Part shown: positions 4,936 through 14,990 of the stretch, one piece after another | How the letters are laid out: every line of letters starts with the position of its first letter | Position numbering within the stretch: the stretch's first letter is position 1 | Notes under the pieces: generated by a model | Database searches by the model: none | Told to the model about the DNA's origin: nothing | What the model saw: the letters and a program-made list of their open reading frames with translations, nothing else | Origin: Daucus carota subsp. sativus | Taxonomy: Eukaryota; Streptophyta; Magnoliopsida; Apiales; Apiaceae | DNA length: 64,000 bases | Assembly (NCBI RefSeq): GCF_001625215.2 | Contig: NC_030381.2 | Coordinates: 55,043,214 to 55,107,213, forward strand | Reading direction: 5' to 3' | Position numbers and translations under genes: made by a program

Positions 4936-5000
4936 TGAATATAAGTTATGAAACTATACTTTAAATACAGTCTAAAATGTGTTACAAGCAGTAAAAGAAA

Positions 5001-6016
5001 ACTCTTAAAAAAATAAGAGGGACGGAGAGAATAACGAAATATTAATATTGAATAACGTTTAATTACAAACATTAGGATCAGAGATTCAAGTCGGAAATGT
5101 AGACTTAACATCATAAATATGCCTCAAATAACAATTAAAGTTGCCTAATTGATTAATCATATTTTCTAACCAACCAAACACTAACTACTGAAGGCCCAAA
5201 AATTAAGCAAGTAACTAATCTGCAAATAACTGCAATGCGGAAGATAAGACTAGCTAGTGGCAGTTCAAGCATGAGCTGAAGGATTAAGCACATGACCTAT
5301 GAACTCCACCATTCCAGTAGCGTTTTCCCGAATGACAAACAAGAATGGGTGGTCTGCAACAAAGTCAGTCACAACCTTTACCCGAGGTACACAACTTGAT
5401 CCACTCATGCCAACAACAGTGGCAGCAGCAGCTTCAGTACCTTTCTCATCGACTTCAATAAAGGATTTATGCACTATTTGGGAGACAAAGAGAGGGAGAG
5501 AATTAGAGACCATCTCCCCGAGGCCTCCTGATGGACCAAAGAGCGAGACCAGTCCTGGGCTCTGTAACGCTTCGCTTGCTTCAATGTTATACTCAAATAA
5601 AAATTTTGGAATTCGGAACTTTCCAACTTCAACTCTTCGACTTGGAACATAGCGGTCAAGGAATCCAGGTTCTGAACCAGCTCTCTCTATAAGTGCTGGC
5701 AAGCCGTCTTTTTCATCTGTCAGGTAAATGTAAATGGAAAAAAGAAAGCTTTTTCTCCATGCTTTGGTTCCGGGCTTGTTTGTAAGGAAGCTCCAATACT
5801 TTGAAACCATCAAAAACGCTGATATATTGATCCTCATTGCTGGTCATGGAGGGTATTTGAATAGAGCTGGAATTGAATTTGAGGAGGTAAAAGTCATAGT
5901 TTCTTGTATAGAATTCATTGAATGGGCTAGACCATTTTCCTTTGAAATACAGGGCATTGGCTAATATCAGCTGAGTTGACCTTTCGACTGAATCCAGAAT
6001 ATTTTTTATAAGACCA
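5001..6016 (-). repeat. 1-kb duplication shared with 8732-9741
   Basis: The block from ACTCTTAAAAAAAT to the GAATATTTTTTATAAG segment is nearly identical to 8732-9741, covering the 3' flank and most of the second exon of the serpin gene. Homology stops abruptly on both sides. On the right it stops exactly where P450-derived sequence begins. This copy is the derived, broken one. Confidence 0.85.
5265..6016 (-). pseudogene. Serpin pseudogene (second exon only, frameshifted)
   Basis: Compared with the intact serpin at 8997-9791, this copy keeps the end of strand/helix region LIKNILD through the C-terminus NPSAHA. It has lost the N-terminal exon and the start of exon 2. An extra A in the run near 5736 (AAAAAA against AAAAA) shifts the frame just after SMEKKLSF. 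The reactive-loop hinge VDEKGTEAAAAT is still readable and the loop then reads VVGMSGSSCVPR, differing from the intact copy (VVLMLGSSCVPR). No promoter or start remains. A recent pseudogene, judged by how few other differences have accumulated. Confidence 0.9.
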
Positions 6017-7735: not shown

Positions 7736-7937
7736 AAACTTCAAGATATGTAGTAATTTGGAGTAGATATATGAAAGAGCAACAAAAAAGCACACAAAAA
7801 GGCTCTAATTTTTAGAAGAAATATGTTTCCAGCTTGAATTAGAGCTTTATTATAGTGCACTTGAGAGAATCTATAATATCAAATCATACAGAGAAAACTT
7901 AAGGACAACTGTACATATAAGATGACTGAAAACTGAC

Positions 7938-8120
7938 CTTGCAGATGGACATGAAATCATGGTCAGATTCTTGATCTCCGAGGCCTAAGTCGGGTAAATT
8001 GTTGCCAAATTCTTTAAGAACAGCCGCTTTTTTATGTTCACCTACGACAACACCTGGCTCTTTCACAAATCCAATAGCTCGTCCTGATTTACAAACTTGT
8101 AATTCTGTGCCAATAAAAGT
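7938..8120 (-). pseudogene. Glycerol-3-phosphate acyltransferase (GPAT) exon fragment
   Basis: The minus strand reads [26 protein letters not shown] and [20 protein letters not shown] then DHDFMSICK, followed by a good donor (AAG|GTCAGT). This is the N-terminal HAD-like phosphatase motif region of land-plant sn-2 GPATs (cutin/suberin type). Only one exon is present, with no acyltransferase domain nearby, so it is an isolated captured or duplicated exon. The frame is open through the whole piece. Confidence 0.8.
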
Positions 8121-8172
8121 GGCAGAAGTAAGACTTAAGAGGGCATACCATTTTGCCAACCTCAATATTAAA

Positions 8173-8203
8173 GTTCAGGCTCAAGCTCAAGCTCAAGCTC
8201 AAG
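8173..8203. repeat. CTCAAG hexanucleotide repeat
   Basis: Four tandem units of CTCAAG/GCTCAA lie just outside the GPAT fragment. Confidence 0.85.
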
Positions 8204-8996: not shown

Positions 8997-11175
8997 TCAA
9001 GCATGAACTGAAGGATTAAGCACATGACCTATGAACTCCACCATTCCAGTAGCGTTTTCCCGAATGACAAACAAGAATGGGTGGTCTGCAACAAAGTCAG
9101 TCGCAACCTTTACCCGAGGTACACAACTTGATCCAAGCATGAGAACAACAGTTGCAGCAGCAGCTTCAGTGCCTTTCTCATCGACTTCAATAAAGGATTT
9201 ATGCACTATTTGGGAGACAAAGAGAGGGAGAGAATTAGAGACCATCTCCCCGAGGCCTCCTGATGGACCAAAGAGCGAGACCAGTCCTAGGCTCTGTAAC
9301 GCTTCGCTTGCTTCAATGTAATACTCAAATTTAAATTTTGGAATTCGGAACTTTCCAACTTCAACTCTTCGACTTGGAACATAGCGGTCAAGGAATCCAG
9401 ATTCTGAACCAGCTCTCTCTATAAGTGCTGGCAGGCCGTCTTTTGCATCTGGCAGGTAAATGTACATGGAAAAAGAAAGCCTTTTCTCCATGCTTTGGTT
9501 CCGGGCTTGTTTATAAGGAAGCTCCAATACTTTGAAACCATCAAAAACGCTGATAAATTGATCCTCATTGCTGGTCATGAAGGGTACTTGAATAGAGCTG
9601 GAATTGAGGAGGTAAAAGTCATAGTTTCTTGTATAGAATGCGTCGAATGGGCTAGACCATGCTCCTTTGAAATACAGGGCATTGGCTAATATCAGCTGAG
9701 TTGACCTGCCGACTGCATTCAGAATATTTTTTATAAGGCCACGGGTCTCCTTTTCGACCCAAGAATTCACCAAGTTTTTTACCTCCTCAGCCTGCACAAG
9801 GTACATTTAATCAAAATCATATTACGTTCATCTTGATATCATGTAAATTAACCATCATATAAACAAGTACAAATAATTATAAATTTTTCAAAATTTTATG
9901 GTGGTAACACTACACTCCCTTCGATTCTAAATAATTGTTCACTTTAATTATTAGCACTTTTTGCACGTACAGTAAGGTGTAAATTAAAGAGATTCAAAGA
10001 GAATTAATTGGTTGAGATATGCTGACCTTGTTCTGAAAATCGACACGATGAGAAGCCGCCTTGTACATTGTTTCCGCAACTTGCTGGAACGAAGGCTTGA
10101 ACGATACGGACTCGTCAAGCCAAACACCATTGGCAATGGACACGCGAGGACCGCCAGAGGAGGAACCATCAGCAAAGACAACATCAACAAGAAGTGCATA
10201 GACAGAGTTAAGTTCATCCACACTTTCAGCTTTCAGAAAAGAGAGAAGCTGGTCTCGGGTTTCGCCACTGGAACCAGCCGCAAGCAGGCTAAGAACAACT
10301 TGTATGGATAGCGGAGAGAAGACGAGGTTTGAATCTTTGCCATAGTTTAACAGGAGGTGCTTGGCTAAGGTTAACGAAACATCCACCTGGTTTTTGCGAG
10401 AGCCTTGATCAAGTCCGGGATAGTTGTTTCGAGCAGCAGGAAAAATAGTGAATAGTTCAGAAGCCTCTTCAGGACTGAGATAGTTTTCTGGAGAAGCCTC
10501 TTCAGGACTGAGATAGTTTTCTGGAGCCATCGGGAAACCAGGGAATTGTTGAGGACTCCGGTCATGTCCCAGATAGTTGTTTTGAGTCGTTGGAAAATAA
10601 GGAAATTGTTGAGAGCCATGTTCAGGATCGAGAGAGTTGTTTCGAGTCGTCGGAAAATCATAGAGTTGTTGAGTAGCTATTGGAAAATTAGGGAATTCTT
10701 GAGGAGTCCAACCCGAAGAGTTGTTTCGAGTCATTGGAAAATTAGGGAATTCTTGAGGAGTCCAACCCGAAGAGTTGTTTCGAGTCATTGGAAAATTAGG
10801 GAATTGTTGAGGAGTCCAAGCCGGAGAGTTGTTTCGAGTCCTTCGAAAGTTAGGGAATTGTTGAGGAGTCCAACCCGGAGAGTTGGTTCGATACATTGGA
10901 AAATTAGGAAATTGTTGAGGAGTCCAACCAAGAGAGTTGTTTCGAGGTACATGAAAATCAGGGAATTCTTGATAGTCATGGTAAAGCCCGCGAGAATTGT
11001 TTGGAAGCACACGAAAATCAGAGAATTCTTGAGAGTGGTGATCAAGACCGGAAGAATTGTTTTGAGGCATAGGGGATTCTTGATAGTCTTGATTAAGATG
11101 GGGAGAATTGTTTTGAGTAGGAACCCTAGAGGATCGCTGAGAACCCTGGTTGAGGAAAGAGTTTTTGTGAGCCAT
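8997..11175 (-). CDS. Serpin with a long N-terminal repeat extension
   Basis: Two exons, 11175-10027 and 9791-8997, join in phase 0 and encode 647 residues. Residues from about 261 to the end are a full plant serpin (about 387 residues, normal length): SNLVFSPLSI, the hinge VDEKGTEAAAAT, then FVADHPF and the C-terminal FIGHVLNP. Serpins are suicide inhibitors of serine and cysteine proteases; plant ones are usually cytosolic. By counting from the hinge, the reactive loop reads LMLGSSCVPR with Ser at P1, not the common Leu-Arg. Residues 20-257 are 12 or so imperfect 18-residue repeats of type NNSxGWTPQxFPNFPMTR, rich in Asn, Pro, Gln and Phe. No signal peptide is seen at MAHKNSFLNQ. The start is the only Met before the repeats and has a TATA box 55 bases upstream. 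Extension function unknown. Expression not shown. Confidence 0.9.
9115..9173 (-). other. Serpin reactive centre loop
   Basis: Encodes the hinge GTEAAAATVV and the loop LMLGSSCVPRVK. Counting from the conserved Gly at P15 places P2-P1-P1' at Gly-Ser-Ser. This assignment is by counting and could be off by one or two positions. Confidence 0.6.
10405..11118 (-). repeat. In-frame ~54-bp tandem repeats in serpin exon 1
   Basis: About 12 imperfect copies of a unit near 54 bases encode the NNSxGWTPQxFPNFPxTR repeat. The three central copies (about 10690-10860) are almost identical, and outer copies are diverged and of variable length (18-28 residues). A separate 30-base direct duplication encodes ENYLSPEEAS twice near 10460-10520. 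Each unit keeps the frame, which argues for coding constraint. Most units contain Asn-Asn-Ser. Confidence 0.9.
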
Positions 11176-11229
11176 GAGAAAATCAAAGGATTATGAGTAT
11201 GATTCTTTTCGATCTGTACCAAAAACCCT

Positions 11230-11237
11230 TATTTATA
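11230..11237 (-). promoter_or_regulatory. TATA box of the serpin gene
   Basis: TATAAATA on the minus strand, 55 bases before the serpin ATG, which leaves a very short 5'UTR. Confidence 0.6.
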
Positions 11238-11369
11238 AGGACTGCAATTAATATTACCAAATTAAAATTAGAATTATATATGGATATAATCAAAGTTTAC
11301 TTTGATATTGGGCATCCTTGCCTCCTTCCATAATTATGGTATTTGATCGAATTTACATTTTATATATTA

Positions 11370-12302
11370 CTAGCTTATAACTCGTGCCATGCACGGGCGG
11401 TTATAATATTTGCTATCTTATCGTATATATTTTAACTTAAATTAATATTATTGTGAGAATAAAATTATAATAGAATACTATTATTATATAATTTTTTTAT
11501 TTAACAGCTGATAAATTCTTAATAGTTAATTCAGTCAAACGGCTAATAAAAAATTAGGTTGAACATGTATATTTTACTGAGAATGTTCAAATATTTTTTT
11601 TTTCATCTTATAATTTAAGAAGATCTATAAAATCATATATAAATCAACCAATCAATCTTCTAATATTTCGTTATTGATAATTTATAATATAATATGGAAC
11701 ATATAATAAGTTAAAAAGACTCGTAAAACCAAATACCGACACATCATACTAACGTAATTTTTAATATTTTGGTTTAATAGATAATAAAAAATATATTATA
11801 ATATGTTATAAATTAATGAGGTTCATGGGACGAATACCAACTGGCTCACCGAACTCGATTGACCGACCGACTAACTGAAATTGTCATGATTTAACAGTAT
11901 AATAGTATATTATAGATTTATAATATTACTTTTAAAGTGAGTCCATTAGAGTATTTAAAAATAATGTTAACGTGTTTGGTTGAAAAATATCACAAGTTAT
12001 TTATTAATAATTATATATAATAATATTATATTTTTATATATATGTAGCCCGTGTTAATTGTAGAAAATCCGTTTTTTAGTTAGTATATATAAAAAAGATA
12101 ATGTATTTTAGTTGAAAAGGTAATTACTATGTTTTTCGATGTTATTTTAAATAATGGAGTTTTTTTAGTTAAAAAATATAAAAAAAGATGACATATTTTA
12201 CTTAAAAAGAATAATTGGTATATAGATAGGCCCGTATTTTGGCCAAAGTACCGACTGACCAAACTTTCAATGTTTCGGCTTTAATAATATAGTAAATATA
12301 GA
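11370..12302 (-). mobile_element. Non-autonomous Helitron
   Basis: On the minus strand the element begins A|TCTATATTTACTATAT (host A at 12303) and runs into TTAAAGCCGAAACATT, a common plant Helitron 5' end. It finishes with a CCCGTGC/GCACG hairpin, TTATAAG and CTAG before a host T (11369). There is no target duplication, as expected. It is 933 bp with no Rep/helicase coding, so mobilisation would need enzymes from elsewhere. Confidence 0.8.
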
Positions 12303-13335: not shown

Positions 13336-14476
13336 CCTATCTATATAACCAATTATTCTGGGCCTATCTATATAACTAATTATTTTTTTTTAATTTGGGC
13401 CAAAATACTGGCGTATCTATATAACCAATTAATAATCCTTTTAAAACCGAAATATTAAAAGTTTAGTAGTTCAATACTTGGGCCAAAACACGGGCCTATC
13501 TATATAACCAATTATTCTGGGCCTATCTATATAAGTCATTATTCTTTTTAATTTGGGCCAAAATACGGGCGTATTGCCCGCAAGGGTTGGTTCAGCTGGT
13601 TAAAGAGGGGACAAGTATCCTCTTGGTCACAGGTTCGACTCCCGAAGGGAGCAGAATTTTGAGATTATGCCTTCTGAATTGCGTGAGCTCGTGGGTTTAC
13701 CTTGTGCGCACCCAAAAGGTAGCGGCTGCGGGTTCCTACGTTAAAAAAAAAAAATACAGGCGTATCCATATAACCAATAATAATCCTTTTAAAGCCGAAA
13801 TATTAAAAGTTTAGTAGTTCAGTACTTGGGCCAAAATAAGTGCATGTCTATGTAACCAATTATTCTGGGCCTATCTATATAACCAATTATTTATTTTTTA
13901 ATTTGGTTCAAAATAACCGAGCTTTTACAATTAACACGGGCGCCATATATATAAAAATATAATATCATTAAATATAATTATTAATAAATAACATGTGATA
14001 TTATTCAACCAAAATACATTAATAACATTATTTTTTAATAATATTTTTATAACATGTTATAGTATATTTTTTATTATCTATTAAACCAAAACATTAAATT
14101 TAGGTTAGTATGATGGGTCGGTATTTAGTTTCATGCGTCTCTTTAAATTATAATATGTTTTATATCATATTATTAATTATTAAACGAAATATCAAAAGGT
14201 TGATCAGTTAATTTATATCGGCCTCCTTGAATTATAACATGTAAACGAAAATATTTTAACATTCTTATTAAAATATATATGTTTAACCTAATTTTTAATT
14301 AGACATTTGACGGGTTTAACTATGAAGAATTTATCCAACTGTTAAATAAAACATTTATTTAATCACATTATTCTATCATAAATTTATTTCTACAATAAAA
14401 TTATGTAAATTTAAAATATATACGATAAAATAACAAATATGTTAACCGCCCGTGCATTGCACGGGTTATAAGCTAG
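12874..14476 (+). mobile_element. Non-autonomous Helitron, opposite orientation
   Basis: The 5' end is A|TCTATACTATACTATTAAAG at 12874. The 3' end is a perfect 7-bp stem hairpin CCCGTGC-ATT-GCACGGG (14449-14465), then TTATAAG and CTAG before a host T. The 1603-bp element belongs to the same family as the one at 11370 but lies in reverse, so the two form large inverted repeats (about 11370-12060 against 13915-14476). A SINE is inserted in it. No coding capacity. Confidence 0.8.
13575..13751 (+). mobile_element. tRNA-derived SINE
   Basis: The head carries pol III promoter-like boxes: an A-box-like GGTTGGTTCAGCTGGTTAAA and a B box GGTTCGACTCC, about 35 bases apart. The body has GCGTGAGCTCGTGGGTTTAC and GCACCCAAAAGGTAGCGGCT, and the 3' end is oligo(A). 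It is flanked by a 14-base target duplication AAATACGGGCGTAT / AAATACAGGCGTAT (13561-13574 and 13752-13765) with one mismatch. It inserted into the Helitron, so it is the younger of the two. Confidence 0.88.
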
Positions 14477-14990
14477 TATAAAGGAGAAGCGAGGGGCGTG
14501 TAGGTGGCGCCTCTCACATCGCTCCGTTTTATTTTTCTAATTTTCTGGGATTTTTGGATGAAAAATATTAAAAATTAGAATTACCTTTTTTAGTTTCGGG
14601 TATATTAGAAGCAAGTTTCAGAATCTGATTTTGTTTCAATTTTGTTTCAGATTATCTATTGAATATAGTATCTTGAAAGTTTTAATCTGATTTTGTTTCA
14701 GATTATTTATGGAATATAGTATCTTGAAAGTTTTAATCTGATTTTGTTTCAGATTATTCAACTATGGGAAAGACAGATTATTTATGGAATATAGTAGATT
14801 GAAAATTTTAATCTGATTTTGTTCAGATTATTTAATTATGGGAAAGAGTAGCAAATAAGTCTCTAGCTTGAAAATTTTAATCTGATTTTGTTCAGATTAT
14901 TTAATTATGGGAAAGAGTAGCAAACAAGTCGACCAAACTTTTAATGTTTCGGCTTTAATAGTATAGTATAGAAGTATAGATTATTTATTT
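14477..14990. repeat. Tandem repeats plus a Helitron 5' end
   Basis: Units of about 55-75 bases with TTTTAATCTGATTTTGTTTC and AGATTATTTATGGAATATAG repeat five times between 14600 and 14920. At 14979-14980 a further Helitron-type 5' terminus (TCTATACTTCTATACTAT on the minus strand) follows, without its own 3' end nearby. Probably the outer edge of an older, nested Helitron. Confidence 0.65.

Follow-up and report, generated by a model that had tools for sequence, protein, structure and literature searches.

Serpins joined to a second module are known from the cellulosome, where celpins combine the inhibitor with a dockerin that places it, although the dockerin is a folded module unrelated to the repeat tail considered here. 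Among serpins of known structure, the closest to the carrot protein described below is AtSerpin1 (Serpin-ZX, PDB 3le2, 3le2_A), which is the best PDB match for both exons and shares the fold, the hinge and the C-terminal motifs, with 200 of 372 aligned residues identical. AtSerpin1, however, has no counterpart of the 255-residue repeat tail, and its reactive centre is Leu-Arg-Gly, in contrast to Gly-Ser-Ser in the carrot gene. A plant serpin with an N-terminal extension supported by cDNA has been described in rice (OsSRP-PLP), but this extension is 45 residues long and its printed sequence, judged by eye, shows no such repeat (PMC3534287). The six predicted full-length Arabidopsis serpins were reported to be about 340–440 residues long in the work on AtSRP2 and AtSRP3, the available excerpt of which mentions no long tail. 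In the bacterial serpin tengpin, the N-terminal extension is functional and binds the serpin body; the accessible portion of that report mentions no tandem array, and no homology is claimed (PMC8233489). Long serpin models have been listed, with maxima of 540 residues for Brachypodium and 520 for barley (PMC7692276, in excerpt), whereas several long models in rice were shortened because cDNA support was missing (PMC3534287, in excerpt). Within the available text of the open-licence papers searched, no plant serpin with a comparable repeat tail was found.

The carrot gene lies in the window, i.e., the whole stretch of 64,000 nucleotides that was analysed (C1:55043214-55107213), and its features are collected in Table 1. 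The interval 8997-11175 given by the earlier note proved correct, with the gene on the minus strand. The spliced model contains no internal stop, has canonical splice sites, and joins 255 residues of imperfect repeats to 392 serpin residues without interruption. That repeats and serpin share one exon without a stop, as had been claimed, was borne out by a frame that starts with the ATG at 11175 and meets no stop before the donor at 10027/10026. The exon 1 donor reads AAG/GTCAGC, and AAG/GT occurs at the same position in three paralogues (L009, L010 and L011) that are compared with the window gene below.

Table 1. Features of the tailed serpin gene and its partial copy (positions within the window)
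Feature	Position	Strand	Basis and remarks
Serpin gene, two exons	11175-8997	minus	Open frames and spliced model, 647 residues
Exon 1	10027..11175	-	383 codons (1149 nt): repeat tail (255) and first third of the serpin domain (128)
Intron	9792..10026	-	235 bp, phase 0, 28% GC
Exon 2	8997..9791	-	Remaining serpin domain; hinge EKGTEAAAAT, reactive-centre loop VVLMLGSSC; Pfam, AtSerpin1 alignment
N-terminal repeat tail, residues 1-255	10411..11175	-	Unit table, composition, tails in L009 and L010, fragment L026
Five units of 18 residues (54 nt each) that resemble one another, residues 79-168	10672..10941	-	Tandem Repeats Finder, unit table
Perfect 33-nt tandem duplication (ENYLSPEEASP)	10459..10526	-	Tandem Repeats Finder, 100% matches
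Leader with TATA-like stretch CCTTATAAATAAGG, without ATG	11176..11260	-	Common to L009 and L010, less so L011
Partial serpin copy (exon 2 and 3' flank)	5000..6016	-	94.6% identity over 1018 columns

The serpin domain is complete, in line with the first description. The Pfam Serpin family (PF00079, cut-off 27) matches exon 1 with 78.8 bits at positions 3-121 and exon 2 with 228.2 bits at positions 120-370, the latter with an E-value of 2.3e-67 (query 8997-9806). The gene fits the plant group P serpins, with AtSerpin1 as its closest PDB relative and a single intron at the same site in L009, L010 and L011, which is presumably the general plant serpin site. Group P serpins habitually, though not by definition, start within tens of residues of the fold, and here 255 residues precede the domain. 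An intron at a 'conserved site' is mentioned for serpins in the excerpt of PMC3534287, and the rule for inhibitory plant serpins, as worded in the available parts of two papers, asks for Glu at P17, Thr at P14, Ser or Thr at P8, and 17 residues to P1 (PMC2689219, PMC9917288). Counted by eye on the alignment, the window gene follows this hinge rule, with EKGTEAAAATVVLMLGS/S giving E17, T14, T8 and S1 and with Gly-Ser-Ser around P1, suggesting a suicide inhibitor with a small-residue reactive centre. In L009, L010 and L011 the loop has one more residue, so that Gly falls at P1 by the same count. The residues before the conserved GSSC vary strongly (VVLM-L, VVCMAT, VFCTAP and EVECMM in the window gene, L009, L010 and L011, respectively), as if target specificity were diverging between these paralogues.

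The tail is built of units that open with Asn-Asn-Ser/Tyr or a variant of it. The earlier note had described an extension of about 240 residues made of 18-residue repeats; a long repeat extension is indeed present, although its true length is 255 residues and the 18-residue period applies to the five central units (residues 79-168), the others comprising five units of 20 residues, one of 17 and three partial ones (10 residues, 11 residues, and residues 250-260, where the array passes into the serpin part). Residues 3-21 may represent a further degenerate unit. Tandem Repeats Finder reports a 54-nt array at 10679-10972 (5.4 copies, 89% matches) and a 60-nt array at 10932-11069 (2.3 copies), and the perfect 33-nt duplication is probably the latest event in the array. 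The identity of the tail with itself at lag 18 amounts to 73 positions, compared with at most 36 for any lag from 17 to 21 in 2000 residue shuffles. Closer units are more alike than distant ones (Spearman −0.46, p 0.0014, calculated on non-independent pairs), as expected from unequal exchange and in agreement with the homogenised centre proposed earlier.

The composition of the tail is dominated by Pro (14%), Asn (12%), Ser (10%), Gln (9%) and Phe (9%), with one Lys, 14 Arg and no Cys. Position 2 of the unit is Asn in 13 of 13 units and position 16 is Phe in 11 of 11. A FoldIndex of −0.15 for the tail, versus +0.23 for the serpin, and the absence of a Pfam match in the tail at E up to 1 both favour disorder; the tail is probably disordered. 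An AlphaFold model of exon 1 computed without relatives is uninformative on this point, since its confidence is too low even in the serpin part (mean pLDDT 34.6, with 380 of 383 residues below 50). Prion-like domains are recognised by a composition rich in Asn and Gln and poor in Pro; in the tail, Asn and Gln together account for 21% and Pro for 14%. Two other readings of the tail were set aside: N-glycosylation of the NNS motifs, because no hydrophobic signal segment is seen by eye at the start, and a retained intron, because the GC content is 43% in the tail versus 28% in the intron.

The serpin family was then surveyed in the same genome (441 Mb, 11 contigs). Of 50 serpin matches listed, 43 fall in the 16 regions examined and 4 in the window, the remaining 3 being stray short matches on C4, C5 and C7 that were left out. 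By our own count, the 16 regions hold 22 other serpin first exons (one that appears in two overlapping loci being counted once). The tail is present in L009 (129 residues, 387 nt) and L010 (145 residues, 435 nt), compared with 765 nt in the window gene, and L011 has nine residues of it. Both L009 and L010 have open frames through the tail and begin with the same MAH start and leader as the window gene. Of the 22 first exons, 18 offer a Met within about 30 residues of the fold. The earlier statement that known plant serpins start within tens of residues of it has to be qualified by the cDNA-backed extension of 45 residues in OsSRP-PLP (PMC3534287, in excerpt). Another of the 22, L012, has an unrelated repeat tail of 80 residues, suggesting that N-terminal arrays may have arisen more than once in this genome. 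This extension (L012:2065-2304, on C1 at about 7.155 Mb) is rich in Lys, Pro, Thr and Glu and consists of imperfect PKLEPSETK repeats with a period of about 36 nt. Two further serpin clusters are located on C5 (about 44.81-44.88 Mb) and C3 (about 46.31-46.33 Mb); one group of them begins MEQSFRKRQRKSSNP, a basic N-terminus that may, as a guess, direct the protein to the nucleus.

Searching the same genome with the tail at E up to 10 yielded seven matches, namely the window gene, L010, L009 (two), L026, the start of L011 (weak, E 1.1) and one on C3 (E 3.3, chance level). The confident matches are confined to the chromosome of the window, within about 220 kb; this search scores the best candidates, so the repeat counts are lower bounds and further weak copies are possible. 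L026 (376-516) is a 47-residue tail start with the shared leader, located about 200 kb away and followed by unrelated sequence, and a search for a serpin match in L026 found none. Outside this genome, no relative of the tail was found in Pfam, the PDB or a plasmid set, while IMG/VR gave two pattern matches and GTDB contigs gave ten, none of them confirmed; an IMG/VR search with exon 2 returned nothing. IMG/VR, GTDB and the plasmid set are not plant genome collections, so their silence means little, and the own-genome search is the informative one. Compared with the first observation, the surrounding gene family and the likely self-origin of the repeat discussed below are what this analysis adds.

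The alignment gaps between the paralogues bear on whether the tail is translated. Gaps in the tail measure 3, 50, 10, 162 and 153 nt between the window gene and L009, and 3, 54, 198 and 75 nt between the window gene and L010; seven of these nine lengths are divisible by three, and the remaining 50 and 10 add up to 60 between them. For the same two pairs, the gaps in the leader (1, 12, 1 and 1 nt with L009; 1 and 19 nt with L010) and in the intron (14 and 37 nt with L009; 3, 18 and 8 nt with L010) include three multiples of three among 11, and the intron gap with L011 is 19 nt. Loss of frame within the tail would ruin the serpin behind it, so that frame-keeping gaps are what a translated tail predicts, although they follow in part from the unit lengths of 54 and 60 nt. 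The claim that the units keep the frame holds both within the array and between paralogues, and relatives with out-of-frame repeats, which the earlier note had named as evidence against its observation, were not encountered in L009 and L010, the two long-tailed paralogues. In addition, there is no in-frame ATG between Met216 and Met370, and an internal start therefore cannot strip the whole tail from an intact serpin, which would carry at least about 40 extra residues, barring an unseen splice or a non-ATG start. Openness of the frame by itself tells little, since the antisense strand is also open over most of the array (10456-11196, 246 codons), and the absence of stops is weak evidence for coding (simulated P 0.015 under a star phylogeny and 0.15 with half the changes). 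Codon-position counts between units revealed no third-position excess. Codon-usage correlations of 0.69 between tail and serpin, 0.77 between the serpin and an F-box gene, and 0.60 between the tail and the F-box gene lend weak support. The pattern of the gaps makes translation of the tail very probable, provided that the gene is expressed.

Domain and tail differ in their substitution patterns. In the serpin domain, pN/pS is 0.51 for window-L009, 0.49 for window-L010 and 0.36 for L009-L010, all with 95% limits below 1, indicating purifying selection on the domain in the genes that carry the tail; the comparisons with L011 gave higher values of 0.80, 0.74 and 0.66, and for 0.80 and 0.74 the limits extend above 1. 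For the tail, the values are 1.06, 0.87 and 0.64 in the same order of the three tailed pairs, with limits that include 1, and the pN/pS between units within the window tail is 0.92 (95% 0.53-1.49), pointing to a tail that is near neutral and weakly constrained. The dS of the tail (0.135, 0.219 and 0.352) exceeds that of the domain in the same pairs (0.09-0.10), suggesting that the codon alignment of the tail may pair non-orthologous units. With the three paralogue pairs, which are not independent, taken together, 39 of 63 aromatic positions are identical, as are 46 of 59 Asn, 34 of 49 Gln and 38 of 74 Pro positions; the other residues give 106 of 227. The contrast between domain and tail suggests that the inhibitor is maintained, while the tail drifts in sequence with its composition roughly kept. 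The proposals of the earlier note that the array tethers the inhibitor, drives assembly or acts as a bait receive no direct support; residue change in the tail is near neutral, and kept Asn, Gln and aromatics seem to be slightly in excess. A tether or assembly role is possible, but no observation calls for it, and the gene is best read as a working-looking serpin with a young, probably disordered and weakly constrained tail.

The origin of the repeats was approached through the starts of the relatives. L011 starts with MAQNNSFGLDQGSRKNQVDV, while L013, the nearest untailed relative in the DNA tree, starts with MAQGNS, and L016, L019, L020 and their kin start with MAQ. When the 21-nt start context of L013 was slid without gaps along the window tail, it scored at least 12 at nine places, all of which are unit junctions (MTR-NNS and similar) in frame 0; the best score was 16 and six reached 14, whereas in 300 shuffles the best scores averaged 11.9 and never exceeded 15. 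These nine junctions are copies of one unit and count about once, and the comparison was made after the resemblance had been noticed. On the tails of L009 and L010, the best scores of the same context were 16 (shuffle maximum 16) and 14 (shuffle maximum 15), respectively, whereas the L011 start scored up to 19 against the same junctions of the window tail. The tail starts of the window gene and L009 align to the L011 start better than all 1000 shuffles, and 12 of 1000 shuffles were as good for the tail start of L010. This pattern suggests that the units are copies of the region in which the gene itself starts. Support for the order in which the four paralogues branched is low in the DNA tree (44/56 and 43/48), with 89/69 and 89/70 and the window gene first in the protein tree, so that the short start of L011 may be a loss, and L011 could be derived from an L026-like start by deletions. 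However, the ATG GCT CAA of L011, as in the outgroups, slightly favours a state before growth over a collapse afterwards.

We consider it probable that this serpin was lengthened N-terminally when the region around its start codon was duplicated in tandem and in frame, which gave it a mainly tolerated, probably disordered tail. The duplicated segment would have spanned the leader, the start codon and the first codons, and the units would still show a trace of that former start (leader, ATG GCT CAA, AAC AAY TCT). The duplication would have set a new upstream ATG in frame and so lengthened the protein at its front end, after which the array may have grown and shrunk by unequal exchange or slippage. 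In the product, a Pro/Asn/Ser/Gln/Phe tail, variable in length and probably disordered, would stand before the serpin fold. The serpin presumably works as a suicide inhibitor whose N-terminus is free, and for this reason the tail would be mainly tolerated, its effect being at most dependent on length and composition, e.g., on reach, solubility or weak self-association. A more ambitious version, in which repeated in-frame start duplication left a fossil start codon in each repeat and the tail was recruited as a length-tunable tether, letting a small serpin family with divergent reactive-centre loops act in different places, seems rather improbable to us.

Selection for a multivalent disordered tether, in which aromatics in an Asn/Gln/Ser/Pro background would mediate self-association, scaffold binding or placement at a membrane or condensate and so raise the local inhibitor concentration, is the alternative to which we give most weight, though we regard it as unlikely. 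The composition is kept across tails of different length (F+W+Y 37 of 255, 18 of 129 and 19 of 145, with 1, 0 and 1 Lys and no Cys in the window gene, L009 and L010), and the constant Asn and Phe of the units, the higher identity of aromatics, Asn and Gln between the non-independent paralogue pairs and the negative FoldIndex all fit. However, the aromatic excess is small and the tail pN/pS is near 1, a kept composition follows merely from copying one unit, and L011 manages with nine residues. The Pro/Gln/Phe repeats might alternatively act as a bait that attracts or saturates the target protease, as has been proposed for the prolamin-like reactive centres of grass serpins; those of grain serpins resemble prolamin repeats and a shield role has been suggested for them (PMC9917288, in excerpt), and the unit motif PQQFPNFP is rich in Gln, Pro and Phe. 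This is an analogy only, and the reactive centre GSSC is unlike the tail, which makes the bait very improbable.

Somewhat less likely than a selected tether is a dead or dying gene: the locus would have lost its expression or its use, and the tail would be a sign of that. The gene differs from the partial copy at 21 nonsynonymous and 5 synonymous codons, a broken exon-2 copy and transposon-like ends lie nearby, and a tail fragment is stranded about 200 kb off. On the other hand, AtSerpin1 resolves 13 of the 21 sites, assigning the change to the copy at 9 and to the gene at 4 and leaving 8 open, comparison with L009 and L010 gives the domain a pN/pS of about 0.5 whose limits stay below 1, and no damage is apparent in the hinge, the stop, the splice sites or the TATA-like leader. 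We likewise doubt that the protein starts inside exon 1, e.g., at Met216, which has the context ttcccgATGG and would give a serpin of 432 residues with about 40 extra residues, the rest being leader. Rice serpin models have had their N-termini trimmed before, by 25 residues in OsSRP-QKG and by 117 and 126 in two others that had no full-length cDNA (PMC3534287, in excerpt), but no ATG lies between the TATA-like stretch and the one at 11175 (tttctcATGG), which is common to L009, L010 and the L026 fragment and heads a frame that the tail gaps keep. A similarly low probability is given to a tail captured from another gene, or carried in by a transposable element, and then fused to the serpin, which a repeat-rich segment appearing suddenly and a degenerate Helitron-like end seen by eye about 190 bp upstream of the ATG would fit. 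Against capture, the seven tail matches listed comprise five strong ones and one weak one within this serpin family and one at chance level, no tail relative was found in Pfam, the PDB, IMG/VR, GTDB or plasmids (of which only Pfam and the PDB cover plants), and the unit junctions resemble the serpin family's own start.

If transcripts confirm the gene, it would be a recent case of a protein acquiring a long disordered stretch, with the region of its own start as a possible source. Tails of 9, 129, 145 and 255 residues coexist in one genome, and the carrot tails thus let one ask whether such an extension is a tolerated by-product or a change in the inhibitor's working. They also warn against trimming over-long N-termini by default in plant serpin models.

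The partial serpin copy lies 3.7 kb downstream of the gene and contains a frame-shifting indel; no exon 1 or tail was found for it. Its reactive-centre region reads VVGMSGSSC and differs from that of the gene at two residues. On the upstream side, inverted repeats of about 446 nt that are 82% identical span 11368-11812 and 14046-14478. The end at 14473 carries the hairpin CCCGTGCATTGCACGGG followed by CTAG, which resembles a Helitron 3' end, and the degenerate Helitron-like end noted above lies near 11371. Between the two serpin copies, at 7899-8174, a fragment matches the HAD-like domain of RAM2-type glycerol-3-phosphate acyltransferase in Pfam.
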